Of a stretch of 64,000 nt of DNA, positions 1-62,607 are shown in pieces (within the stretch, counting starts at the first letter, position 1; each line of letters opens with the position of its first letter). Origin of the DNA: Ascaphus truei (Eukaryota > Chordata > Amphibia > Anura > Ascaphidae). The stretch lies in contig WSYH01000662.1 in assembly GCA_036426205.1 (NCBI GenBank), positions 62,001 to 126,000 of the forward strand, read 5' to 3'. The notes beneath the pieces were generated by a model. It searched no databases. It was not told where the DNA came from and was given only the letters and a program-made list of their open reading frames with translations. The translations under genes were made by a program, and so were the position numbers.

Positions 1-1240
1 GCCTGTAATCACACCAATGCTTTGTACATCTTATATGTTGCAATGTATGTTATTAGTAATGCTGTACATTATTAGTAAAGATTACTTTAGCATTCTCACA
101 TGTGTATGTATAAGTCACACATCTGTGTTGATGTGACCTACATGTAACAAGTGTCAAACTGTTAACATAAACCCAGTAGTGTCTCTAATTTTAGTGTCAT
201 TTTGCATTACTAATTTCAGCCAATGAAAATGTTGTTAATATAGTTGTCATGTAATTCATGTCACTTCATCATTATTATGATGATCATTTACAAGTAGTCT
301 CAACATATGAACGTCAATCACGTGCACATTTGCATAGGCACACTTTTCAATACAACTGTTTGTGTCGGTATCAATTTGTGTATTATGCATGTATAACACC
401 GTCAAATGATAACATCAGCTTTATTATGGTAGCTTATATCATCATATTCACTTTACTATGTATGTGTTGAACGTTTAATAAACACAGAAAAATACAGTTA
501 GTTTGCTACAAGAAATATACACATAAACGTAATTGTTTACATGATGTTGACCTAATATTTATAACTGCATGCATTGTAGTTGACCACTACATCTTGCCAA
601 TAACATTCTTTGCAGCAGTCCCAAACCATTTTAACAACATTCCCATGTTACAAGAAATGTTTTACATTAAATGGCTAGTTGGTTGTAAGTCTCCTTTACA
701 TAGTTTCTACATTTATACGTTCCATTACACAATATACTACACAAATGTTTGTTCAGAGTGGGAATGGTTGTTATATATAAAACAGACCATGCCATATAAT
801 GTTAGTACTAAATAAAGAACACACATTAAATTTTCTAACTGCACTGTTTAGCAACATCATTATGTTAATTATGTGCTTATGCAATATAGGCATAATTGGA
901 TCACATTTTGTATTGTTATTTAATATGCGCAATATCAAATATCTAAATAGTTCCATATGTAGTATATTAGTCGGTCGCTCCTCCTCACAATCATCTCATA
1001 TAACGTTAGACTCTTCTGAAATGATACATTGATCCCATTGAATCTTCACCGACATCTCTGAAAAACAGCAAACACATTATGGTCAAAGATGGCACCTTAA
1101 TATATGTGTAGCCGTGACAACGCCTTACACATCTCTATACTGTATGATTGTGTATATCCACGCGTTAATCACTTATATGTTAGAACTACAAGGTTATAAC
1201 TAAACATCATTATTGATCATTTTGTTAATTGTGTTGCACG
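1..1240. other. AT-rich non-coding stretch
   Basis: I see no gene here. The short readings on both strands lack family motifs, splice context and biased composition. The base composition is strongly AT-rich with no clear terminal repeats. Confidence 0.5.
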
Positions 1241-1639
1241 CATAACTATGTATATGAACTGTCCGTTGGCTGTATACTTAAAAATGTGCGCGCACATCTT
1301 ACTGTGCGCACGCACTTCACGCTTGGGTCGACAAAGTGTTAGCGCATGCGCAAAACAATGCGTACATTGTGCGTTCAATACATGTTGTAAATACCATTAA
1401 CCATATAATATTTATTTCAAATCCAATTAAGGCGAAACTACATTCGTTCTAAATGCGTACATCTCTAATCTTTTTAAACAGACATGTGTGGATGGAAAGC
1501 ACGGCCGATCACACAATGCGCAAATCCAATACGTGTGACGTCATGTTATGCCAGCGTGAAGCGCACGCAAACACTCCTCCCACAGAATTAACATTGGGCT
1601 AACGCACAGTGCACGCCCACAAACACAGACGCGCACGCA

Positions 1640-1864
1640 TTACACAGTGCAGTGACCGTAACTATAACAAACCGACACAGCCAATAGGCTTTGACGCACG
1701 CACATCGGTTGGGGGCGGGCCTTACATCCGTAATCCTTTTTAAGGACGCCTTCATAGATCTGGCCCACGTTGGCTTTGTTTTCTTGAGTTGATATGATCG
1801 CCTCTGCAATCATTACTTTATACGCTTTGTGTGGATGCATGTTTAGAAGTACATCCTCAGCCAT
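1640..1864 (-). pseudogene. Forkhead-like domain fragment
   Basis: A 74-codon minus-strand reading contains a helix like the start of a forkhead domain (AYKVMIAEAIIST) followed by a second helix (VGQIYEGVLKK), in the order and spacing of forkhead helices 1 and 2. The recognition helix and wing are missing because the similarity stops near residue 50. A CpG-rich block just upstream in the window (about 1,425-1,480) resembles a block at 45,665-45,745 in the BEN/forkhead transposon. Both have a short 'gtacatctct' motif and then 'ctttttaa' plus 'acag'. This suggests a remnant of a related element, but no terminal repeat was found. A chance helix match remains possible. Confidence 0.4.
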
Positions 1865-1929
1865 TGCAGCGTCTCAAATAATGTGAGTGGAGTTGCACGT
1901 TCTCTCTTGAGAATGTGAAACGAGGTAAA

Positions 1930-2853
1930 TGTTATCTGTTTTGTGGCTTTCTACTCAAGGCCAAAAAAAAAGTTACATGTTTCACTCTTTTTTGCAAACA
2001 CCAATTCCATTGTGTAGAAATAATTGGCAGACATTTGTGGTTTCTGATAGCCATTTCACTGTGAAAGTCAATTTAAGGTTGTTTTATCTTCATTCTCAAA
2101 ACAAGTGTCTTATTTTCATTAAATAACAATGTGGGTGAGTACAAAAACAGTGTTGGCATTATGAAAATAGTGCTTACACAGACATATAATGAGATATACA
2201 CACAGCTGCTAATGTTTTTTTGTGAATGCTTTTTTCCTACATTTCCCTGTGTATGTTTCTGTCTGGTTAACTCCCTGTGTGTGTCACAGATTTTAACTAT
2301 GTGTGTATATGTAGAGATTATCATCAACACATATACATATGTATATTGTACAATATATATATGTCTCTATAACCAATATTTACATATTTGTGTATATAAC
2401 TGTATTTAAAGGCTTATATGTAAACAGGGTTTTTTATATTTCTCTGACTATTTGAAATGGTTACATATTACAGGGTTACTATGTTTGAGGGCCTACTACA
2501 TTCAGCTGTGTCGAATTTAGATTTACCATCAAACAAGGCCTTTTGTTAGTTTATAAGGCCTGTAGTGTTAGAACCTATAATACATCTATTTAATCCAGTT
2601 GTACAATGAACATATTTATGCCACTAAGTAGGCCTTGTATGAAACCTATTTAAATGGTGATCAACATGAGTGAATTATGTTATTAATATTAATTTTAGGC
2701 ACATAGTGTTATAGGCTCAGATTATGTATATTTCACTAACATTAGGCCTTTATAATTATAATACTGTGTTTTAACAAGGAAGAATCAAGTGAATGTTGTG
2801 AGAAAAAAAAAATACCCGTTTAGATAGTTAAAATATATAACTATATATATATA

Positions 2854-2921
<68 letters not shown>

Positions 2922-3400
2922 CTATTAGTGTGTGTACATATATCCCTACATACTACATATATATTACTAAACATTCACAGATATTGGATTGAAACCAGTA
3001 CTCATACATGATGAAAGGACAACGTTAAGAAGGTTCAAGCAAGGTGAAGGTAAGTAATATGTAACACTTCATCCTGCTCTACACGGACAATAAAGATGTT
3101 AGCAGTTAAATAGATGTTTGATTTAAGTTGCATGTGAATAATATTGACATGCAATTACTAGCTTAAATACCTATGAAACACACCCAAATACAATGTTTTG
3201 CAGCCAAGTGAATTGCAGCTTCTCCAAACATAGCAACTGGGTAATGTTGGACCATTAATGAACAGATGATTAATACATAAATATAAATAAAAATATTCAT
3301 TCATTAGGACTGTTAATTTTTCCAAACCTTCACGTGTACAAGGACATACTTGAATGTTTGGAAACAACAGGTCTTCATCATACATACAATATTAATTAGA
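1930..3400. other. Non-coding AT-rich stretch
   Basis: Apart from the TA microsatellite inside it, I see nothing I can name. Short readings on both strands look like chance open frames in AT-rich DNA. Confidence 0.5.
2842..2919. repeat. (TA)n microsatellite
   Basis: Almost uninterrupted TA dinucleotides, with one short 'ac' interruption near the left end. Confidence 0.95.
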
Positions 3401-3456
3401 TAATCTAAAGCGAACAAAACAAGGCCAAATACAGATATAGTTAATTATAACATTTA

Positions 3457-4538
3457 TTATTTTTTTTCCTTTTGAGACCGAGTCACAGGCCTGCTTGTTG
3501 TCTCTTGGATTTTTCTTTTCCGTTTGGCTACAACTTTAAGCACAACAGAGCCACTTTGACTGGCCTGTGGCACTTCAGGGGCACGGCTTGCGGCCTGTGG
3601 CACTTCAGAGGCAGGGCTTGTGTCCAGTGAGTGTTCACGGCCAGAGCTTGTGTCCAGTGAGTGCTCACGGCCAGGGCTTGTGTCCAGTGACTGTTCACGG
3701 GCAGGGCTTGTGTCCAGTGACTGTTCACGGGCAGGGCTTGTGGCCAGTGACTGTTCACGGGCAGGGCTTGTGGCCAGTGACTGTTCACAGGCAGGGCTTG
3801 TGGCCAGTGACTGTTCACGGGCAGGGCTTGTGGTCAGTGACTGTTCACGGGCAGGGCTTGTGGCCAGTGACACTTGTGCACTGTGTACCAACTTGTTCAC
3901 AACTGATGCTTGCTCCGTTTCTTGTTTGAGTTTTTTGGTTTGTGTCCAAAAACTGGTCAGTAGTAACTGCTTGTGCATTTTTGTTTTTGGCTCGTCCTTT
4001 GTAGGTGTCAGTTCCAGATTTTCTACAGATGGCAGCGGTAGGATGTTGTCAGGAACATGCAGAGAACTTTCAGCTACTTTACCGGTAACATCCCGACCTG
4101 GGGAATGAACATCAGATGACTGGGGTGAAAAAGTAGTAGCATGTAAACATCCATACTCTGATGGTGTGAAGCTGAATGGATGTGCTGCTGTAGTCATTCT
4201 CAAGTGATTATCTTGAGTTAGCTGAATAACTATTGCTTCTAATGACGTGTTATTTTTTTGCATTTGTTTAGGCACTTCAATGAACACTCTATGGAGATGT
4301 GACAATTGTGATATCGTTTCTTCCTGCAGTGATATCATCCTTTTGTGCACTGACATCAGATCTGAATGGCGACAATTTTCTGCTTCAACAATTATTTCTT
4401 CAGAAGCTACTATTGCAGCGTATGTGCTAGTTGCTGTAGGAATAGCCTGTGTAACTCTTTGAATGGGAACCTCGTCATGGTCACTTGATTGCATTTCTGT
4501 GTCTTTGGCGGCATCATCATCATGATTATCATCATGTG
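3457..4538 (-). pseudogene. Harbinger-type MYB-like protein, exon 4 (C-terminal)
   Basis: Last coding exon of a minus-strand, four-exon gene. It follows a clean acceptor (TTTTTAG at about 4,539-4,545) in phase with exon 3. It starts with an acidic run (AHDDNHDDDAAKD), then a region with heptad-like leucines and isoleucines (roughly residues 50-110 of the exon), and ends in a basic tail (KRKRKIQ, then RSQKEKK) before TAA. Between these lies a 30-bp coding minisatellite of the pattern SLATSPAREQ. The layout of acidic linker, oligomerising middle and basic tail fits the DNA-binding partner protein of PIF/Harbinger transposons. No Harbinger nuclease is visible nearby. Exon 2 is frameshifted, so the gene as a whole is probably dead. 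Confidence 0.65.
3612..3870 (-). repeat. 30-bp coding minisatellite
   Basis: About nine tandem 30-bp units, each coding for a variant of SLATSPAREQ on the minus strand. Units differ by a few substitutions (SLATSP, SLDTSP, SLTTSP). The exact multiple of three keeps the frame, so copy number could change without breaking the reading. Confidence 0.9.
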
Positions 4539-4905
4539 CTAAAAATAAATGTACACAATGAAATGGCATGTTAATCTGAGCTGTTTTACTATGTAATTAT
4601 ACACTGTGATAACTAACACCTAACATGTTTTCATACGTTTTATAACGTCACATTAAAATGTACCTTGACTTACGAATTCTGTTTGGACTCAGTGTGAAAT
4701 AAGAATGAATGAAAAGTTGTTCAAAACTCACAACTCCTACATGATACTTAACATCACAAACACAATACATGTTGTGTAAAAAAAAATCATTTTCACTGAC
4801 AGTAAGTAATCCTATTTAAATAACATGTGCAAAACAAATAATTAACTTTTTTAACCTAACATATAGAAGTGAACATATTATATTTTATGCACCTCATACA
4901 CTTAC

Positions 4906-4983
4906 CTTCCAGGTGTGATGAGCTACATGACCCAGGTGAAGACACTTGTTCCATCTCAGGTGACACATGTCCTCCAGGAGCAA
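4906..4983 (-). pseudogene. Harbinger-type MYB-like protein, exon 3
   Basis: A 78-bp exon too short for simple open-frame searches. On the minus strand an acceptor (TATATAG) precedes a reading of VAPGGHVSPEMEQVSSPGSC and onward, and a strong donor (GAAG|GTAAGTG) follows. Its phase joins exon 2 upstream and the acidic start of exon 4 downstream without a break. The proline/serine/glutamate-rich content is typical of the linker between the MYB-like domain and the acidic region in this transposon-protein family. Confidence 0.65.
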
Positions 4984-6069
4984 CTATATAGAACAATAAC
5001 ATCAGTTGTTAATTGACATGTGAAAATATTGAAGATAGAGTTACTGTATGTTGAGTTTTTATGGCTAACTAACAGCATCAGTTCCTGAACTGAAAATGTG
5101 TGTGGCAAAGTGAACATAAATATTTGTAATGACAATGTACATGCCAGTGTACTTAGGGCTTTTTAGTTCTGTAACATACAACAAATTATGTTTATGCAGT
5201 AATGCGTTAGGATAATATAATTAATATTGGGCATACACTGCATATGTTGTGTACTCATATCACAATAATAATGTACATAGCTATCATGAGATGAACTTTC
5301 ACAATGCTTATCATTAAGAAAGTCATATTGGAAAAGTAATATTTTTTGTTAGAGGATATGTGTGGTACATTAATAGAAGCTGTTGCACGGCTGAATGTGG
5401 CTGCCACTCAACAACACAACACATGCTGTGTGTGATAATGTGTTGTTGATATCAGTTGAACTATAGATCTGAGTGAACGAATGTGTGACGTACGGTTTCA
5501 TAGCTAATGGCTTGTTGGGTGATTTAGTACCTAGAGTGAACCTTTCAAATGACTGTGATTACCTTCTGTTTTGTTAGTCAGATTGTAAGAACGGTAGTCC
5601 CTCCCCCAAAAACAGTAATCAACCAGACCTTTCAATTACTTGAAGCAGGTGAAAATGGTGTCAACAAAGTTGACCATAACATGACCCTGTTATTTGGCTG
5701 TGTGCTGAACCCCACCCCCTCTGTTGGCGTGTATGCTGTGATTACATATTAATTGCAGCTGCTTTAACACAATGGTAGATGAGCAAAATATTACTCTGAA
5801 GTGTGCAAGCTATGAACACAATGACATAATATATGCGACGTGTGCCTCATTATGATGTCTGTATATGATATGAAGCAAAAAAGGACCTTTTAATAAACCT
5901 CAACACATTTGTTAGTGCAAGTGATGTTTGTTGGCCGTTTCATGTAATATATTAGATGCATGATTTGAAGAGGCAGTAATGTCGTGTTTGTAGGAGTTAA
6001 ATAAATAAAAAAACACATTAATATTATATATATATATATGTTCTGCACCAGTACCTAGTAATATTTTCT

Positions 6070-6175
6070 CATTAGCATGTCTTCCACATGTGTGCTACCC
6101 TGTTGTTCCCCATAATCGTCCACCATAAATTGCTTCCACTGCAGCAAAGGATTGTGGGAATTGACATGCAAATGA
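6070..6175 (+). repeat. Fragment of the hammerhead-associated repeat
   Basis: About 100 bp similar to the 410-420-bp tandem repeat at 57,789-58,860. Shared landmarks are 'cttccactgca', 'ggattctgggaa'-like sequence and 'gacatgcaaatgagcac'. The ribozyme part is absent. It lies in intron 2 of the MYB-like gene. Confidence 0.7.
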
Positions 6176-6246
6176 GCACGCAATGCCACGTGGTATATTA
6201 TTTACTGCTTTTAGTATGATTACAACTTATATGTATATTTAGTTTA

Positions 6247-6248
<2 letters not shown>

Positions 6249-6326
<78 letters not shown>
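6249..6326. repeat. (TA)n(GA)n microsatellite
   Basis: A run of TA dinucleotides passes directly into GA dinucleotides, then into short GACA units. Confidence 0.95.
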
Positions 6327-6330
<4 letters not shown>

Positions 6331-6450
6331 CAGACATATATACATATATAGATGTAGGTATGCTTATATTGGGAAGAAAGTACAAATAGCAGCGGAAATG
6401 TGTAACATAACTGTAAGCAACGACACGCCTAGTACAGTAACATTTCTCAC

Positions 6451-6746
6451 CTGCTGGAAATTGTGAGGAATAAATTCCGATGTCCCTGTCACCGGGCAAA
6501 CCCTCCACGACGACGGGAAGTAATTTTTCACGAAGCAGCTCCTCCAATGGAGTTAAGATGAGACGTTGTGCTGGCGGCCCACCTCCAGTGGCAGAAGTTG
6601 GTCTTGTATTTTCTTTTTTAATTTAGCCCTAATATCATCAAATCTCTTGCGACAATTCAGCTTGTCCCTGACCCGATTCCCACAAGCATTCACACCAATT
6701 ATTATTTTGTCCCACATTTCTTTTTTGCTTGATGAACTTGTCCGCA
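6451..6746 (-). pseudogene. Harbinger-type MYB-like protein, exon 2 (frameshifted)
   Basis: The exon has a good acceptor (TTTCTAG) and donor (CAG|GTGAGA). It completes the MYB/SANT-like DNA-binding domain begun in exon 1: KKEMWDKIIIGVNACGN followed by a basic helix (CRKRFDDIRAKLKKK). Near 6,605-6,620 the frame is broken by one base. Without a frame change the protein stops at about 6,556. In the neighbouring frame the exon continues through a GGGPPAQRLILTPLEELL segment to the donor, which is typical of this family just after the MYB domain. This lesion is the main reason to call the gene a pseudogene. Confidence 0.7.
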
Positions 6747-7097
6747 CTAGAAATACATACAAAATATATGACGTTAATTCATAATAATACAACCACCAGT
6801 TTCCTACACTGCTAGCTGTTCCAAGAGATAGCAAACATGCTGGTTTAGGTGTAATATGTGAAGCACATGAGAATTCACTTCTAAACCTATACATGTAAGG
6901 AAGCTTGCATTAATATTGTATGTAGTTAGCGTAAATTGAACGCCTGAGTTTTCTTGCCGTTGTAACGCATGATAAAAAGATGTGTTTCAACAATAATTAA
7001 CATTGATAGATATTATGGACCCATATTTGCATATTAACAAAACTCACATGACCTAGGATCACATGTATTTGAAGAATGAATGGAAAGGTACACTTAC

Positions 7098-7539
7098 CTA
7101 CTAAATGTCCATACAGACTGTCATAGTGCTCCAGAATCCCATTGACAAGAGCTGTATTTTCCTGGTCATTGAAGCGAGGATTACGTGGATGCTCCACACG
7201 TTTCTTCCAAGCACGTTTAGGCTCAGAGCTTGCCTGCTGCTGACTGGACTCTCCTTGTTCCAATGGAAGAGACTCCAAAAGCTGGCCACCAGCAAGCACG
7301 CCACCACCAGACACCCCATCAGCAACTGAGCCACCAGCAGCACTCGCACTCCCAGCAACAGTACTCGCACTCCCAGCAACAGCACTCACACTCCCAGCAA
7401 CAGCACTCACACTCCCAGCAACAGCACTTGCACTCCTAGCAACATCACTCCCCTGAACAGTACGTTCACTCCGACGCGTACTCACACGAGTAGCACTACC
7501 ACTCACACCAGCATCAATCTTCCCACGCTTTGCGGGCAT
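7098..7539 (-). pseudogene. Harbinger-type MYB-like protein, exon 1 (N-terminal)
   Basis: The proposed start is MPAKRGK at 7,539 because it opens directly into basic, low-complexity sequence; the upstream in-frame part is hydrophobic and unlike the family. A serine/alanine/valine repeat (AVAGS units) is encoded by an imperfect minisatellite at about 7,335-7,440. The exon ends with the first helix of the MYB/SANT-like domain (NPRFNDQENTALVNGILEHY) at a perfect donor (GTAAGT). The tryptophan and the rest of the domain follow in exon 2. Proteins of this kind bind the subterminal DNA of Harbinger transposons and carry the nuclease to the nucleus. Confidence 0.7.
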
Positions 7540-7710
7540 ACTTATAGCACTCACAAAAAACAGAAAACAAATGTACAGCAAATCACACGAAACACTTCCA
7601 CATACAAAACAAGACAAAGATGTAAACAAAACAACAAAGGACAAAGCTCTCACAATACACAACAAGTCTCTCAGTCAATATGCAAATATTAAATCGCCCA
7701 GCTCTGTGCG

Positions 7711-7985
7711 TCTCTCTCTCTCTCACTCCCAACAACACAGAGAATGATTAACAGTACACGTTGCCTTTAAATATGGCGCGCTATCCAATACATGCTTGCT
7801 TCGCCTGATTCAGCAAGAATTTTGATTGGCTAACCTAACAGCACCCCGCCATGCACGCCGATACACCTGTGTGTGATCGGCAAATCATCGTGAGAGTGGG
7901 CGGAATGGTTTTCGGCTTGATTCTGAAGGGATTCGGCATACGGAGAGGGAAAATCGCCAATAACATGGCTAATCGGTAAGCTTGC
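7711..7985 (-). promoter_or_regulatory. Putative promoter region of the MYB-like gene
   Basis: Upstream of exon 1 on the minus strand lies a TATA-like TATTTAAAGG (7,764-7,773), a TC-rich tract (about 7,711-7,726) and a more GC-rich block up to about 7,985. No matching terminal repeat was found on the other side of the gene, so the element boundary is unknown. Confidence 0.3.
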
Positions 7986-8039
7986 CGATTTCACATTTTC
8001 GTCGCTTACTGCATGAGGCCCCTAGTCTGAGTGTAGCGA

Positions 8040-8216
8040 ATATAGCACTAAGATGCTAAGGTATTTACAACAAAGTTTCACTGTTTGCACCTTCTATTTT
8101 ATACAAAAGAGTATGGAAATGTACCCCTTACCACCCCTTTTTATTGTTGTATCCTACCCTTCCCCATCCTAATTATAATTTGTAAAAATCAATAAAAATC
8201 TAAGTTTAAAAAAAAA
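8040..8216 (+). mobile_element. LINE 3' end with poly-A tail
   Basis: Sequence typical of an L1-superfamily 3' UTR: C-rich stretches, then 'aatcaataaaaatct' and a run of A at about 8,206-8,230. No coding part is left. Confidence 0.45.
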
Positions 8217-8229
8217 CAAAAAACGAAAA

Positions 8230-9405
8230 AAACATTTGTTAAAGATGCAATCCCCCATAGTAGATAATTTTTTTAACATTTTTATTTTTCTAAAGAACCT
8301 ATTTTGGAAGGGATCGGACAGGGCAAGATATATTTAATTTAACGTTAATTTTCCTGGCACATAAAAAAGTCTATAGTATATATTGGAAACTGGGGCATCC
8401 CCAAAGCTAGGAATAGCTTGAGATTCAGAAAAAAAAAATTCCAAAAATGGGAGGATTGCTGCTTTAATTATAGAACAAGTCAGTTTTACAGTCTATTTAA
8501 ATCAGTTTAGAGTACATATATTGTCAAATATTTAAATAGAATAACTTTCACGTCTGTTTAAAGTTATGTAGTTTAGAGATTGTTTTTAATATCTTTGAGC
8601 ACTTTCTTAAATACTTGCTAATTAATCTGGTATAATTAAATTCCTTTCTGTGCTCATTTTAGCTGTGTGAATAGTTCCCAGCTTGCTTAGAAACACAATG
8701 TGTGGGTAATGCTAGCAGAGAACAAGCCTTCAGGTATATCTTGATTGGTAGAGCATGTAATTGAAAACAGAAAGCTGAATTGGAACTGAAAGTGGGGTAA
8801 AAGAGAGGCCTTGGGAAATTATATTTCACATTGCAAAAAATAACCAAGCTCAATAGAAATTTTTTACAATGTGTCAAAAACTCTTTTGTCAATGAATGCA
8901 AAGAAAGATACCACTTGTTCATTTTAAGTTGTATTTCCATTACAGTTAATTAGAGTGGGTTGAGATTTTGCATATTTAGATAATATTTGACAATAACAGT
9001 CACATTATTTTCTCATAATGTCATGCATTAATTAATTAAAGGTGTTACTTTTTAATTGTATATGTATAAAAGCCTAATGTAGTTCTTCATTGGTTTTACA
9101 CAAAAGAGACAGGCTAACAACGAGAAGATGAATTAACCAGATACCATACAGTGCTATTTACATTAACAGTACATGCACACAGCAACAGTCTATCTGATAA
9201 TCATAAGGGGTAGAGTTGGTGGTAGGAAGCTACTGAACCACAAGAAATATGATTTTCCCTTTAGAATTACTGCTTCACCTTTACGATACAATATGTCAAT
9301 ACTTAAGACAGAAACTGTTTGTCCCTATAGTATTTAAATATATCTGCAGGGGTTGTAAAAAAAAAATAAGAACATCATTTGAACTTTTCTTGTGCTCTTA
9401 ATATA

Positions 9406-9458
<53 letters not shown>

Positions 9459-10940
9459 AGTTACAGTATTTTTGTCTGCAAAACAATTTATTAAATGATT
9501 TATTATTGCTCCAGTTACAGCTGAAACAACCTGAAATAAAAAATACAAAAATAGTGAACAAGCAGAACTGCTGCTTTAAACAATTGGATTATTTAATGAA
9601 ATATATTACTTTTGATAATTGTTAATGTTGCACGTATGTGGCATTTTTATTGCTTTTATTGATGTGAAAACATGTCACAATATATCCTAATTTAATACTA
9701 ATTTTCCATAAGACTAAATGGTAACCGTAATGCATTTACAGAATGTCATGCCAATATGGACCATTACAGAGGTCAGATTCATATATTTTCATGAATATTT
9801 ATTTATTATTTTTATATTGGTTCAATGAAATGTCTCAGTGTGCAAAGAATACAGATATATGTATTTCTGGGACAATGAGTGTGCTAGTACTGAGACATTT
9901 TTAAAACACAATTTGCTATGAGAGTAAAACACTTGAAAAAAAGTTGTATAGTAAACTTAACCTTTACATTTTGCATTGCAAAATGAAGAGATTGTTGCAG
10001 CATTTGTCTAATTTTTTAAGAAATGTTTTGCTTTACTTACGGCTTTGGAATGATGGGAATTTTATGTTATTGATAGAACAAAATTCTCTTCTGGACTCAT
10101 TAGTGAACTCTGCTATGAAATGCTGAGTAGCAGTTTCTTAAATGTGGCGATATTTTATTATGTACCATAAAAAAAAATATTTTCACAGCTCTTGCTGTAC
10201 CGATTCAGTGGATAAAAATACATGCTGGATGTTAACTCATAATGTACATAACTAATGTCGGTTATTCATAATCCAATTCTTTTCTCAAAACACTATGAAG
10301 TATCTTTTTCTTATAATTTAAGTGATTGGGGGAATCCTTAATATCCCTATACCTAGTTCTCTTATAAATCTGAGAAAAAAAATATATCTTAAAAGTCACT
10401 GTATTTTATTTATAACACTGTACATATTGCAGCTTGATATAATCTTGTCATTGCCAGCACCAGAATGGGTCAGTTTTAGATACAGTGCCCAACTCATTTG
10501 TACTTTTTAAGGTTACCTACATTATTAACAAATAATGTAATTACAACCAATTCTTAGGGGACGTTTAAGAAAATTGTTAATGATAATAGTTGCTGCTGGG
10601 GTGTTACCATACATACAAATGCAACAACAACATCATAACATCACATGTTGCGGCACGTTTTAGATTTGTTTTTCAGATATTTGCGACTGGCAAAAATCTT
10701 GCTGATACCACAAACTTTGCCTAAAAAACTGCAAATATCTTACTCATAAATCATCTTTCACTCCATGGTTCTCCACAAAGAAGGTTATGTTGTGTAAAAT
10801 TTTAGCAAAGCTTACAACAATTGTAAGTTTTACACATTCACATGAAAATCAATAGGTATGAATTGTTGGCCTTGTGAATTGACAAATATTATTCAGCCAA
10901 ACAGTTTACAGTATTACAAATTAATTAAAGTTTTAAAGGA
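8230..10940. other. Non-coding AT-rich stretch
   Basis: No gene or recognisable transposon was found, apart from the TA microsatellite at 9,408-9,455. The open frames are short and AT-rich on both strands. Confidence 0.5.
9408..9455. repeat. (TA)n microsatellite
   Basis: About 24 uninterrupted TA units. Confidence 0.95.
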
Positions 10941-44429: not shown

Positions 44430-45051
44430 TCATCAAGCTTTTATTTTTTGTAACTTACATTTTTATTTTCAAAAAGCAATGATACAATATGATATCCGTA
44501 CAATACACAACATTTACCGACAACAATTGCATTGTATCCAAAGCACATTCCGTACAAAACGCTCTACAAATATGCTAACATAAACCAATTTGAGAGTGTG
44601 GGGGAGGGATTTTGAGGAGGGAGGTGGGAATACCAGAACCTCCGCATTGGAATCACTTCAAAGTAATATTTGGGATGCCTAAATTTACTGGATATTCGTC
44701 TGCTACTCTAAGCTATCCCAGATCTCACTTGTTTCTCACCTTGTATGTACAGAATAGATAACCTGAGTAATAGAACTGATAATGGCCCTCTGACCGCCTC
44801 TCTCCTCTGTCTCCAAGTGAGAACGCACCTAAGACTATAATTACATTATTGTGGCCAAACTCACCCCATGTATGTCTGATTGGGCTAGCCACGGCTTCCA
44901 CACCTTTTAGAATTTAGTGCCTGTGTCATTTACCAGGATAGTGAGCATCTCCATCTGACAAATAAACCAAATGTTGTTCCTAATTTTGCAATTACTGGAG
45001 AGTCTTTTTGTTTCCACAATGCTGCGATCTCACACCTCGTTACTGTTGCTA
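44430..45051 (-). mobile_element. Interrupted L1, 3' part
   Basis: 3' UTR and last ORF2 codons of an L1 on the minus strand (ATVTRCEIAALWKQKDSP). The frame continues into 49,783-50,270 once the 4.73-kb insert is removed. Confidence 0.85.
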
Positions 45052-45893
45052 CAGCTGCGGCCGCCTTTATCCTAGTGCGGCCGTAGCGGCGCAACTCTGA
45101 TAACCGCGGGCAGATGCAGTATGTTTTTTTTTTTCGGAATATGTTGCGGTATTTTAGCGCTCGTAATATTAGCATTTTATTAGCGCTGTCTGCAATACTG
45201 CAATACCGTCTAAAAACTCAGGGGGCATTCGAGAGCTGTTGTCTTCAAAGTCTAATACTTTAGCAGTTCAACCTACAGTACGTCAGTACACAGTCTGCGT
45301 GTGCGCGCGCAGTAATTGTAAATTTGCATATTTATACATGCATGTGCAGTGCTGTATGTCTCATTTGAACATTGTTGAAACGCATAAGCGTGTACTGTAA
45401 CAGTATCTCATTTCGGCATACACAGCGCTCTCCCCTCGCTCGCCCCCGCACACACACAGGCTAATTTACTGCACTGCAGTATTTCAACTTCTTATCTTAT
45501 CTACAGTACAGAACACTTCTCCCACACCATTCCTTTGAATGTGTGTCTTTCTGGTTTCAATCACATTCCTGTCATCACATTCCTGCTTGCTAGCTGATGA
45601 TTACTGCACATGCGTCTATAACTTCACCAATGCTTGCTTGCGAAGTTCAAGCGTTGGATATCTGCAATTCGTTGTCCGCTCGTGTACATCTCTTTAATTC
45701 TCATGCTGAGATCCTTTGAAATCTTTTTAACAGGCATTGCAGCGAGTAGAAAGAAATACAAGCACTAGAATGTATTTTCGATGTTTAGTCGATGTGTATT
45801 CAATGTGCAGTGAATCCACAAAATGGATGGTGTATTTATATGTTAATGACACATTAGAGTACGCCCACTTTTAACAACTGTACCTCGTCGCCA

Positions 45894-45903
45894 TGCATAA
45901 AAG
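45894..45903 (+). promoter_or_regulatory. TATA box of the BEN gene
   Basis: GCATAAAAGG lies 86-95 bases before the chosen start codon. This is why the ATG overlapping it (45,893) is rejected as the start. Confidence 0.55.
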
Positions 45904-45988
45904 GTTACACACTTTGCATAGCCTCCCACTTGATGATCTGTATCTGAACTTGCCCTTGTCCAGATACTGCATTGTGCCATCTGCTTCC

Positions 45989-47301
45989 ATGGATCAACCT
46001 CGATTCTATGGACGCAAGAAGCCACTCGCCTCTGCCGTGCCTATCACACAGAAAAAGCGAAAGGCGGCAGCCATTTCCAAGCCAAGGCCAAAGCGACAGG
46101 CTAAGGCTAATAAAAAAACCTTCTGCTGACCCCAAAGGCTAAGGGTTTTAATACACGTAAGCCTTATTATGTCAAGAAGAAATTCGGTGATGTACACTCA
46201 TGGCAAATCAAATGGCAGCCAACCCATCGAACCCGCAGGCCACTTCCTCGATTACGCTTCGACGACTCTCCCGGAACTCCACAGCCCATCTTCTCCACTG
46301 CTCTTCGACGATGCTGCCGCTGGTCTCCCGGAAATCCACGGGTCACTTTCTCCATTACGCTTAGACGACGCTGCCGCTTCTCTCCCGGAAATCCACAGGT
46401 CACCTCCTCCATCCTTCTTCGACGATGCTGCCGCTTCTCTCCAGGGAACCCCCATCTCATCCTCCGTAGCACCCATCCACCCAGATGTCCACAGCATGCC
46501 ATGCACAAGAACCAGCTCATTAGACCGCATGCTGAATGGGTTAAGTGTGGATATCCCCGGGAACTCTACTATGCTGGTAAAGATAGATTTGCTTTTAGAG
46601 ACCATGCTAAATATGGATCAACGGATGGAGAAGATAGAGACTGACATAGCGGGGATACATAATTTGCTCGGTGTTCATTCCCCTGTATCCCGACGCCGGA
46701 GCATGAGGGTGGCATGGATGTGATGAATGGGACCTTCGACAGCCTTCCAACACCAAGTACACCGCCTCCACCAGAAGAATTTGTGTACATGTATGCCGTT
46801 GAGGAGGAGGATAACATGACAACCCCGTCAAGACAACGCCAGGAGACAACACGGCGACCAAGACACCCAGACAACCTACCCTCGCCCGCCGCCACAAGCA
46901 CACCCGCTCCCAGAAGCACATCTGCTTCCAGAATCCAACCTACATACGCTTGCATCGATACGGTGCCCGACATCATCCTGCGCGAGCTGCCACCGGCACT
47001 CAGGGAGAAGTATAAGGTGATGAGTGCTGGTTTACCCCAGAAGTATGGCATGTTAATTTTTAAACACCACGTGTCCTACTTGGTGTACTGCGGGTGGGAC
47101 AAAAATGTAAACTACAAAGGAAATCACGAAAAAAGGGCGCTTCCTGAAAATTTAAGAAGGACTATTGTGGAGGAATTGCGGCGCTATTGTTCAATTTCAG
47201 ATCCTTTAATGAAAATCATTAGAGACTCCATTAATGGCATTTTGCGCCATACAAGGCATAGGCCCTGGAAGAACAATCTGGTGGGGATCGAATTTGCGTG
47301 A
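45989..47301 (+). pseudogene. BEN-domain DNA-binding protein of the transposon
   Basis: The start MDQPRFYGRKKP follows a TATA box and opens into a lysine/arginine-rich nuclear-localisation-like region (KKRKAAAISKPRPKRQAK). A TGA at 46,127-46,129 and a frame change near 46,690-46,715 break the reading. The middle has three roughly 18-residue repeats (FDDAAAGLPEIHGS type, 46,290-46,440) and a short coiled coil (KIDLLLETMLNMDQRMEKI). The last part (46,714-47,301) is a BEN domain: KYGMLIFKHHVSYLVYCGW, NYKG, KRALPENLRRTIVEEL, then IRDSINGILRHTRHR. BEN domains bind DNA and occur in chromatin regulators and some viral proteins. A poly-A signal follows at 47,353. Confidence 0.75.
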
Positions 47302-47352
47302 CTGTTCAACTGTTGTTTATTTTTTTACTTTTTGCTTGTTTTAACTTCTATT

Positions 47353-47358
47353 AATAAA
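47353..47358 (+). promoter_or_regulatory. Poly-A signal of the BEN gene
   Basis: AATAAA 52 bases after the stop. Further AATAAA signals occur in tandemly repeated 3' sequence near 47,532, 47,633 and 47,667. Confidence 0.6.
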
Positions 47359-47387
47359 GAAATCTTTTTACTTACACAAGACATGCA

Positions 47388-47484
47388 CAATTCCAGTCTT
47401 CGAGGCCGCAAACATGCCCGGTTTTCAGGATAAAACCAGTCCTGTTTGCGGCCCTCGAGGGCTGGAGTTGTGCAGGCCTGACTG
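47388..47484. mobile_element. Palindromic MITE, copy 1
   Basis: A hairpin of about 95 bp: TGCACAATTCCAGTCTTCGAG at one end and its near-complement CTCGAGGGCTGGAGTTGTGCA at the other, around a 'ttcaggataaa' loop. Confidence 0.7.
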
Positions 47485-47691
47485 ACTGTTCTGTACACCA
47501 TCCTACTGTAAATGATTTCACTTTCTGTACTTTAATAAAGGAAATGTTGCGTGTTTTAAATTTTATGATTATAGAATTTTTTTTACTAACACCATACTGT
47601 TGTGCTGTACATGTTTTGACTTTCTGTACTTTAATAAAGGAGATGTTGCGTGTTTTAACTTGTATTAATAAAGAAATGTTTTTTATTACAC

Positions 47692-47790
47692 AAGACTGCA
47701 CAACTCCAGTCCTCGAGGGCCGCAAACAGGCCCGGGTTTCAGGATAAAACGGGCCTGTTTGGGCCCTCGAGGACTGGAGTTGTGCAGGCG
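47692..47790. mobile_element. Palindromic MITE, copy 2
   Basis: The same hairpin as at 47,388, with better arm pairing (TGCACAACTCCAGTCCTCGAG and its complement). The two copies sit in a duplicated 3' region: 'ctttctgtactttaataaagg' and 'gtattaataaagaaat' words repeat between and around them. Confidence 0.75.
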
Positions 47791-48761
47791 TGGACTGACT
47801 GTACGTACACCATCCTACTGTAAATGATTTGACTTTCTGTACATTAATGTTTTCACTAGCAGTAAACCATACACCTGTTAATGTTTTGAATTGCTGTACA
47901 CTTTAAATGTTTTTCAATTGTATTTGTAAATAAATGTTTTTGTACTTACTCCACCAATAAAATAAAATGTTGATTTGTTTTAAATTGTTCCATTGTCTCC
48001 TTTTATACTGTAACAAAATACAGTGTTTCTAGAATGTACAGTACTGTCCAGGCATACTGTATACTGTAGGCACGCTCAGTACTGTACATCACAAGAGTAT
48101 TAAAACAATACACGCTGAACGGGTATAGAATACACATATGTACCGAAATAAATGTAGAATAAAGGCATACTTTTTTTTCGGGTTTATTATACAGTATATA
48201 TAAAAAAGTATTGTATACGGTCTGAAAACAACAGCATACTGTTTCAGGTTTTCTATGAAGCTCTCAGTTACAGTATTCTATCCTAATCAATAACAACGGC
48301 CACTAAACTGTAGACTCCGGTACGTGGTTTTTTAAATCCGATTCAGCAATGTGCAGGCATTGTAACACAAAGCGATATTATCCATCGAAATCCCTCCATT
48401 TGCCGTTTTCTGCATGAGATGACAAAGTTTTCTTTTCTGAGGAAAAACAAAAGTACAAGTTTTACTGTAATGGTCAGTCAGTCCCCTAAAGAAGTTCCCA
48501 CAGTCAGTCACACCAATAATTTTCTCGGGGGGCGTCTCAGGTTCACATGCGCATGCGCCTACTGTCGATGTGATGACACGCATATGCGTTTCAAGAAGGT
48601 TCCAAAGCGCATGCGCCTAGCTTTCCACCAATTGTTCAGTATCAACTGTAGAAGCTGCTCAGCCAATGATATTGCTTACAGGAGATATTGCTTACAGGAG
48701 AATCGCTTGACTGTGCATTGAATTGATATTTCAAAAACAGATAAAAATACAGCAACATTAC

Positions 48762-49387
48762 TCACCATAGACTTTGCCAATCAGCTGGCGCCGAGCCACT
48801 GCCAGTCCTATATTCTTGATTATACACGTAGTTGACAGGTGACTGCGGGACTACTACACCTGTAGTCAGCTGATGAGGCTGGAAATTGCTTAGGTACATG
48901 CAAGCTTGCTGGAATCTGAACGCGAATTCCGGCTCAGGCTGCAGGTATCCGGGCGGGGACAGACAGCAAGGGTTGTCGGGCACCAGATTTTCACTGAAGT
49001 CGGACCGTTATTGAAAGCCGGTGCTGGTGCTGGCGCATTGCTTGCCTGCGACTGACATTTCTTAGTTGGTTTTAACATGACCTTTCGCCTTTTGAAGTCT
49101 CCATGATCATAGATATGGGAAAAATCCGGTGATACACACCAATACCCTCCAATAACACCGGGATCAATACGAAAAAAACACGGATCGATACATAACTTTT
49201 TCCTTATTGCACGCTTCCACACATGAGCATCTGGTGAAAAATTGTAAAAGTCATAGTTTTCGATAAAATACTGATAAATTTGAACAACTGTTGCCATCTT
49301 ATCATCTGTTGCATTGATCGCGGCCCATATTAAATAAGCGTACGTTCTATCGGGTTTTTGGAACACGGACTGCAGTTGTGCACTCAT
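48762..49387 (-). pseudogene. Forkhead-domain protein of the transposon
   Basis: The start MSAQLQSVFQKPDR is chosen because a TATA-like TTTAAAAG lies about 130 bases upstream (49,516-49,523). An in-frame ATG at 49,462 is an alternative. Residues 11 to about 105 form a forkhead (winged-helix) domain: TYAYLIWAAINATDDKMATV, QIYQYFIENYDFY, recognition helix WKRAIRKKLC, then CFFRIDP, GGYWCVSPDF, YDHGDFKRRK. Canonical forkheads have W-x-N-S-I-R-H-N-L-S; here the Asn and His that contact bases are Arg and Lys. A frameshift near 49,000 moves the tail to the frame ending SAPADWQSLW at 48,762. The gene converges on the BEN gene. Confidence 0.78.
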
Positions 49388-49515
49388 CTCGGAACTCTCA
49401 GGACAATAGAACACCAGACACTGCGCATTTAGTTTTAATATGAAAAGCCTAAATTGATACATTATTGTAACTTCTTCAGTCCAAGGGCCAATTTACAATG
49501 GACCACTGTGGTATT

Positions 49516-49523
49516 CTTTTAAA
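49516..49523 (-). promoter_or_regulatory. TATA-like box of the forkhead gene
   Basis: TTTAAAAG on the minus strand, upstream of the forkhead reading and inside the right end of the transposon. Confidence 0.4.
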
Positions 49524-49782
49524 CACCTTCAAGTCGACACATTACTGAAGCGCATGCGCATTACAATTCATGAATATCTGCCATCTGGCGGATACGCGAA
49601 GAATTGCAACCAATTAAATCCGAAACCATTATCAATAAACACATAAACCGCGGGTGTGAATGCAACATGAATGCGGTATGAATGCGGTCAGAATGAGGCA
49701 TGAACGTGGTGAAATGCGTGGCATTCGGAAAAAATCCCCGAAAAAATTCGGAGATGTTGGAGAATAAAAGGGGCCGCGGCTG

Positions 49783-50270
49783 TATATGCAAAATAAGTTT
49801 ATTTTCTTCTCTGGATAGCTGCTGTGCTGGCCTATTCAGTAGGAACAGCCATGGATCAAATGGTATCTCGAGGTCCAAATTCCTCTGTAGCCAAATATGA
49901 ATTTCCTTCCAGGGGGTTAAATCCGAGGGCAAGACCACAGCATGCGCAACAAGTCTGCTTGCTCTCCGCATTGTTTGGGACACAATGGGGAGTACCCTTC
50001 GATGAATTTGGATAATTTTAGCGGGGTGACGTACCACCTCATCATTACTTTATATGCATTCTCCTTTAGTGACGTGCAGATTGAGCTTTTCGCAGTGGCC
50101 AAAAATATCTCCTCGCAGTCTGTTACTTCTAGTGTTTCCCCTAGAACTTCATCCCATTGAGCCGTGTAATAAGGAGGCCGACAGTGCTCTCATCCAGAAC
50201 AGGCTATCTCTTTGTACATTTGAGAAGTAAGTCCCTGGTGTCTGTTTCCAGTAGTTAGAAATTTGTCAGT
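49783..50270 (-). mobile_element. Interrupted L1, 5' part seen (ORF2)
   Basis: Minus-strand ORF2 sequence: SSICTSLKENAYKVMMRWYV, the Cys-rich motif CPKQCGEQADLLRMLWSCP, and LNRPAQQLSREENKLILHI, at whose end the transposon is inserted. The L1 itself is cut off at about 50,270, next to an LTR-like start. Confidence 0.82.
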
Positions 50271-61535: not shown

Positions 61536-62607
61536 CGGCTGGCTAACCACAACCAATTATAAGTGCCAAGCACGCACGGCGGAGCAAGCGCCCCCACTAT
61601 ATTATGGTCCTTATACCAGTCATCTTTACTCCACACACAGAGGATTTAATACAGCTAAAGTGCGTTCATGAGTGAACCTTCTAGTCCACCTCCTTTTAGT
61701 GCTCATATTGTTGGGTTATACCTAGTTATTACCAATATCTACCTATTTATTTGGTTCAGGCACACAGTTGTTATTTGGTGTGTGCTTCACTGTATACAGT
61801 GGCGACACAGTTTATTCTAATGCGGCTAGAGCCGCAAGCCGCGAGGTTTCCCGGCTTTTTTATTGAATTCCCTCGGTATGCCGCGCATCACCGATGCGCG
61901 GTCACGCTTCATCGGGAGCGTGCGCGCACGGCGTGAGTGCCCAGGGCTCGCCGAAAGGAGCCCTGGTGTCCTGAGATGTGGGGATGGCGGTGGGCGGCAC
62001 CGGGGGACCCGGTGGACCCGGAGAGGGGAGGGGGGTGCCTCGATCAGAGGACCGATCTTCCGAGGCTCCGGCATGCGCACGGGACACCTCGGCGTGCGCC
62101 CGGTATCTGTTGTGGCCGAGACCGGGCAAATGTAAGAATAAACTTTGGCGGTACAATATATCTGTTCACTGTTACTGTAAGAAAAAATGTGTGTGGTGCT
62201 CTCAAAACAATACTTAAGCCAGATATGTATATAACAGGAAAACAACCCTTGGATAAGTATATATAATGTCTCTAGGAATGTAGCCCGGTAATGACAAACC
62301 CACAAACCATGCAGTAAGGAAATGCAATAATACCAGCAGGTGACCGGAGATGAAACATTCCGATGACTTGAAACAATATAATGCGACAATATGGAACAAA
62401 CTCACTTGGGAATCTTCATCCACCATCAGCAGCAAGTCAATTAGTTCCAATGTCCAGGGTTGAATGTGCATCCGTAGAAAGTACTCAGAGGTGGAACGTG
62501 AAGAAAAAACGAAGCACCAAGTCCACGCTGTAGAATAGCAATGACACCAACAGGGATACGTACCAAAAAATAAGCTGTTTAATAGGATCCAGACAAATTA
62601 ACAAACA

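Follow-up and report, generated by a model that had tools for sequence, protein, structure and literature searches.

Tc1/mariner (IS630-Tc1-mariner) elements, Sleeping Beauty among them, are compact one-gene transposons of 1–5 kb, considered the simplest in animals. Their transposases display a DD34E or DD34D catalytic spacing and an N-terminal helix-turn-helix DNA-binding domain. PIF/Harbinger elements encode a separate DNA-binding accessory protein, and Polintons/Mavericks are large multi-gene elements. The element described here lies in a 64,000-nucleotide stretch of the frog Ascaphus truei genome (GenBank assembly GCA_036426205.1, contig WSYH01000662.1, forward-strand positions 62,001–126,000), termed the window, with positions counted from its first letter. 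It is a 4,731 bp insert at 45052–49782 and is very probably an internally deleted copy of an autonomous three-gene Tc1/mariner transposon of ∼8.5 kb that retains two accessory proteins.

The element is assigned to Tc1/mariner, as a first-pass annotation of the window had hinted, because of its TA target site, its CAG-starting ends and the match of the transposase in longer copies (DDE_3). It differs from Tc1/mariner in its 8.5 kb length, two extra genes, a transposase modelled as five exons and a modelled catalytic spacing of 32, as against 34. A single transposase gene is usual, though not required, in Tc1/mariner; three genes are found in loci L026, L014 and L033/L034. PIF/Harbinger elements are similar in combining their own transposase with a DNA-binding partner protein but belong to another transposase superfamily, use another target site and carry other accessory domains. 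Polintons/Mavericks likewise have several genes between one pair of ends, whereas the element has a 2 bp TA target site; no polymerase or capsid gene was noticed in it, although no search was aimed at either. Within the scope of the literature search, the novelty lies in the length of the element, its exon structure and the retention of two additional genes. None of the literature matches listed describes a transposon with forkhead or BEN genes, Repbase and Dfam lying outside that scope. The first-pass view of an undescribed family agrees with the matches listed; the BEN half of the proposed gene pair is unsupported.

The insert is a real and exactly bounded element. TA is present on both sides, and the reading frame across the flanks, putatively that of an L1 ORF2, is restored exactly once the insert and one TA are removed, both as first reported. 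A search with the joined flanks (one TA removed) gave 4,129 candidates, of which 40 were scored. Thirty-eight cross the junction at 79–93% identity and the remaining two are the window's own two halves. The boundaries are certain because these matches span the empty site independently of the end alignment, and with 38 empty-site matches in the genome, the interrupted sequence is therefore itself a repeat. The 22 bp ends (CAGCTGCGGCCGCCTTTATCCT / CAGCCGCGGCCCCTTTTATTCT) are the imperfect inverted repeats originally described, 18/22 identical without gaps. The end alignment alone is unremarkable, as an equal score is reached by 10 of 2,000 60-mer pairs drawn at random from the window. The features of the window copy are as follows.

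45050–45051, no strand: left TA target-site duplication (flank sequence)
45052–49782, plus strand: whole element, internal-deletion copy, 4,731 bp (ends, TA, empty-site matches)
45052–45073, plus strand: left terminal inverted repeat (end alignment)
45650–45654, no strand: internal-deletion joint, a 5 bp microhomology common to both blocks (block alignment to longer copies)
45651–45737, minus strand: transposase exon 1 remnant, 29 codons (same reading in longer copies)
45989–47301, plus strand: second gene, earlier labelled BEN, 57 bp internal repeats, C-terminal domain conserved; the window copy has broken frames (frames, relatives)
46954–47301, plus strand: conserved C-terminal domain of the second protein, BEN unproven (alignment; substitution ratio between L033 and L030, given below)
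48762–49387, minus strand: forkhead gene, C-terminal part not in frame in the window copy; start and stop from relatives (frames, comparison)
49118–49360, minus strand: forkhead domain (Pfam PF00250, 1.8e-14, residues 35–115 of the open reading frame 48890–49462)
49761–49782, minus strand: right terminal inverted repeat (end alignment)
49783–49784, no strand: right TA target-site duplication (flank sequence)

The window element aligns to many longer loci as two blocks, 1–603 and 599 onward, which lie kilobases apart in the longer copies, e.g. L010, L026 and L027. By comparison, the window copy lacks the left spacer and most of the transposase. Because 29 codons of exon 1 (MPVKKISKDLSM...IADIQR) are kept and the two blocks are kilobases apart in longer copies, the window copy is an internal-deletion derivative. 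The first-pass statement that no transposase is visible is correct for an intact gene and overlooked this remnant.

A longer copy sharing the ends, of the kind the first-pass annotation had proposed to look for, is found at L026 (869–9400). This copy, 8,532 bp long, has TA at either side, retains the two ends and carries all three genes. The order is left end, 3 kb spacer, transposase (minus strand), second gene (plus), forkhead (minus) and right end. In element positions the transposase occupies about 3141–4786, the second gene about 5040–6399 and the forkhead about 7536–8145, the limits of exon 5 and of the forkhead being placed from frames and homology; several frames are broken. L014 holds an element of a diverged subfamily, B, at 1298–9791 (8,494 bp), with TA on both sides and a poorly preserved right end. 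It aligns to L026 in order, from 94 to 8529, in pieces at 73–83%. As this alignment covers nearly the whole length, the forkhead and second genes are not separate insertions but travel together. The L014 element itself interrupts a subfamily A copy, the two parts of which share 3 bp (769–771), and therefore offers a second direct view of TA insertion. At L033/L034, which represents another diverged subfamily, a forkhead gene (plus, frame broken), a transposase (minus) and a second gene (plus) lie between TA-flanked ends; here the transposase/second-gene block is inverted relative to the ends, which gives a different gene order. All three genes are thus present in three complete elements, and one further subfamily is variable. 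In L031/L032, of the same subfamily as L029/L030, the second gene has the forkhead immediately upstream; no transposase match was found there, but the stretch holds 6,179 N. Inheritance of the three genes together is established, as are the shared ends, the TA insertion and the DDE transposase of the longer copies.

The region missing from the window encodes the minus-strand transposase. Joined exons 3–5 of L023 match Pfam DDE_3 (3.4e-15) and Sleeping Beauty (1e-12). Introns 2–4 have GT-AG borders wherever the pattern was found in the nine loci scanned (A and B), with the exception of L014, where the intron 2 donor is lost. The spacing of 32, from the second to the third catalytic residue, holds under the GT-AG splice model, and the alignment to Sleeping Beauty also shows a shorter spacing. 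In the 3 kb left spacer, 45 frames of at least 45 codons (A and B) gave only short translated matches, on both strands, and no convincing long frame for a fourth gene. Tandem repeats of ∼180 bp, varying in number among copies, are present in the left spacer at L026 element positions of about 2250–2970.

The family is multi-copy and abundant in the frog genome. Genome searches with both ends, as had been advised at the outset, gave 3,053 first-look candidates for the left 349 bp and 3,477 for the right 303 bp. Forty of each were scored and all are near full length, at 95–97% and 92–96% identity respectively (the window itself excepted); first-look candidates without scoring do not count as verified copies. 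TA precedes 21 of 22 distinct left ends of the family, L017 following AA instead; this count excludes places listed twice, ends belonging to other families and, in L023, a duplicated neighbour. For the survey of loci, 20 stretches of 9.9 kb were taken, each at a different one of the 40 scored left ends and most of them from long contigs. The second-gene C-terminal domain is matched in 11 of these (one being a remnant in L013) and the forkhead in eight, both lower bounds because many stretches stop short of the forkhead position. Two left ends in L023, at 3339 and 9400, share the same 8 flanking bases, which suggests a local duplication. A 245 bp TA-flanked miniature element with related ends (CAGTGGCGGCCGCC...) is found in L003 at 603–847 and may be a miniature inverted-repeat transposable element of the same lineage. 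In L013, remnants at 5693–5910 and 6970–7390, both on one strand, are distantly related to the second protein and to the transposase (identities of 33–35% and 37–55% for second-gene and transposase pieces) and possibly represent an older lineage; this locus was set aside as a comparison copy because it is too decayed.

The forkhead and second genes are convergent in the window, which the frames confirm. The identity of the forkhead domain, as read from the sequence, is certain (54 bits against a Pfam cut-off of 27), and this gene of the first-pass annotation stands. Its closest PDB relatives are FOXA2, FOXC2 and FOXL2. Host forkhead (FOX) factors share the domain; the element protein differs in its length of about 200 amino acids, its altered recognition helix and its location inside a transposon. 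The helix reads WQNSIRHNL in FOXL2, WKRAVRKRL in the element forkhead (P0002) and WKRAIRKKL in the window. The N and H of this helix are the usual base-contacting residues; they are not kept, and the alteration is found both in the window and in B. This would fit a changed DNA specificity without proving one.

The second gene is open for 475 codons in L029 and L030 and for 465 in L033, encoding a protein of ∼470 amino acids. By eye, its N-terminus is basic, its repeats are acidic and a coiled coil is likely. KEN precedes LLLTPK in 12 of the 14 non-window loci that have NLLL(T/A)PK, a stretch the scan itself requires. In the genome search with this protein, the best 150 of 23,594 first-look candidates were scored and 124 lack an internal stop, with listed frames of 211–554 amino acids; the proportion is biased to intact copies because only best-scoring matches are counted. 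Protein relatives number one for the second protein and five for the forkhead, all of them Ascaphus truei entries. Between the convergent genes are ∼100 bp palindromic repeats with flanking duplications, which have further matches in other element copies. The window has two (window repeat analysis).

47382–47480, no strand: palindromic repeat copy 1, between the convergent genes
47691–47792, no strand: palindromic repeat copy 2, between the convergent genes

Most coding parts are better conserved than the introns and spacers. Between L026 and L014 the transposase exons differ by 11.3% (4% gap columns), the second-gene C-terminal half by 14.9% (4%), its N-terminal half by 14.3% (32%; L014 is truncated in this half) and the forkhead by 14.6% (7%). 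The transposase introns differ by 24.3% (15%), the left spacer by 42.8% (29%), the left end by 29.1% (13%) and the right end by 24.4% (7%). The ratio of nonsynonymous to synonymous substitution rates (dN/dS), which had been proposed as a check on the two genes, is 0.32 (0.19–0.55) for the pooled transposase, which is clearly under constraint. For the C-terminal domain of the second protein it is 0.29 (0.14–0.60) in L033/L030, 0.37 (0.20–0.70) in L030/L014 and 0.43 (0.23–0.75) in L030/L018, so that constraint on this domain is probable. For the forkhead, constraint is no more than suggested. The check thus gave low ratios in three pairs for the C-terminal domain, whereas the forkhead interval and two intervals for the second gene include neutrality.

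Several results weigh against an autonomous element that keeps its accessory genes by selection. The C-terminal domain ratio is 0.70 in L033/L014, 0.93 in L033/L018 and 1.24 in L014/L018. For the second gene it is 1.20 (0.75–2.08) for A against L014 and 1.12 (0.71–1.86) for L018 against L033, and for the forkhead 0.69 (0.39–1.35), all three including neutrality. Most variants within A are singletons and show little preference for codon position, a pattern expected when copies decay after a burst. From the second gene to the forkhead the intervening stretch is 18.0% different, 39% of its columns being gaps, which blurs the contrast between coding and noncoding parts, and only 28 bases align between transposase and second gene, so that this contrast is not a simple one. 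L030, whose 7,961 bases do include transposase and second gene, has no forkhead match, and none is seen in the unmasked part of L029. Joined transposase exons 1–2 of L025 matched no DNA-binding Pfam family. Enrichment of forkhead sites in the element was also rejected: RYAAAYA, the canonical forkhead motif, occurs nine times across the element where 9.0 are expected, and no part is enriched.

The ratios near 1 in several A–B comparisons and the neutral-looking variation within A are what would be expected if a single capture had brought in the extra genes, which now ride as passengers of no benefit to the element. This is nonetheless improbable. The coding parts differ less than the transposase introns and left spacer, the C-terminal domain ratios are low in three comparisons, the three genes are all retained through the rearrangement at L033/L034 and many second-gene frames are open among the best-scoring copies. 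The first-pass annotation envisaged a split or non-autonomous family without a transposase, in which the two regulators had replaced it. The window copy does lack the intact gene, and L015 and L024 keep the forkhead with no transposase match, but transposase matches are found in 15 of the 20 fetched loci (those in L014 belong to the nested element and those in L013 partly to the decayed relative), part of exon 1 is kept in the window, and L026, L014 and L033/L034 are complete with transposase. A transposase-less family is very improbable; as a family description it is refuted, and it applies only to deletion copies.

Some BEN-domain proteins are viral. The second protein was first read as a BEN-domain protein, but its likeness to proteins such as BEND3 consists of a by-eye C-terminal pattern set against the BEN consensus. 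Pfam, PDB profile searches, structure models and hhalign do not support the assignment. Pfam BEN (PF10523) matched none of nine members of the second protein and no single copy. Weak matches to UBM were seen in four of the nine, below the cut-off (best E 0.042). With hhalign the score against four host BEN domains was 10.6, and the best of 100 column-shuffled controls scored 18.3. AlphaFold models reached a predicted local distance difference test (pLDDT) of 47.2 with two sequences and 55.6 with nine. Foldseek and VIA-align gave no clear fold match for the latter, weak model; the absence of BEN from the VIA-align rows carries no weight either way. A BEN profile search of the frog's own genome gave six matches, four of them in one host frame, despite the many element copies. 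A true but highly diverged BEN domain is therefore possible but doubtful. The host frame, L035 (G000:C11422:56400–58250), is 745 amino acids long with four BEN domains and is presumably a host gene; we take its layout to resemble that of BEND3.

As to function, the transposase of an autonomous three-gene element would cut and paste it at TA and would mobilise intact and deleted copies, the window copy moving only if another copy supplies the enzyme. The forkhead and second proteins would be nuclear accessory factors, kept since they help the element to spread. They may regulate a short divergent promoter separating the transposase from the second gene, where 251 bp lie between the two start codons in the window, or act at subterminal DNA. 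The earlier idea that captured regulators bind the ends of the element is still conjectural, given the lack of enrichment for canonical forkhead sites and a recognition helix unlike that of host forkheads. In a more elaborate form, a re-aimed forkhead and a cell-cycle-timed KEN-motif protein would bind to the DNA of the element itself and link expression of the transposase, or assembly of the ends, to a cell-cycle or developmental state; such a three-gene regulatory unit is a tentative and rather unlikely proposal. The main alternative is that the accessory proteins are anti-silencing or host-manipulating cargo, directed at host chromatin or the cell cycle and not at element DNA. The frequent KEN motif, which we take to be a KEN box (cell cycle), and the lack of enrichment of canonical forkhead sites point in this direction, but the motif is short and is read from sequence only, and this explanation is also unlikely.

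If the two accessory genes have been retained through subfamily divergence and rearrangement, then the Tc1/mariner class can carry and keep regulatory cargo. With this element one could ask, in a concrete case, why a transposon should need transcription-factor-like proteins of its own, and it may be a source of ready-made regulators for the host.

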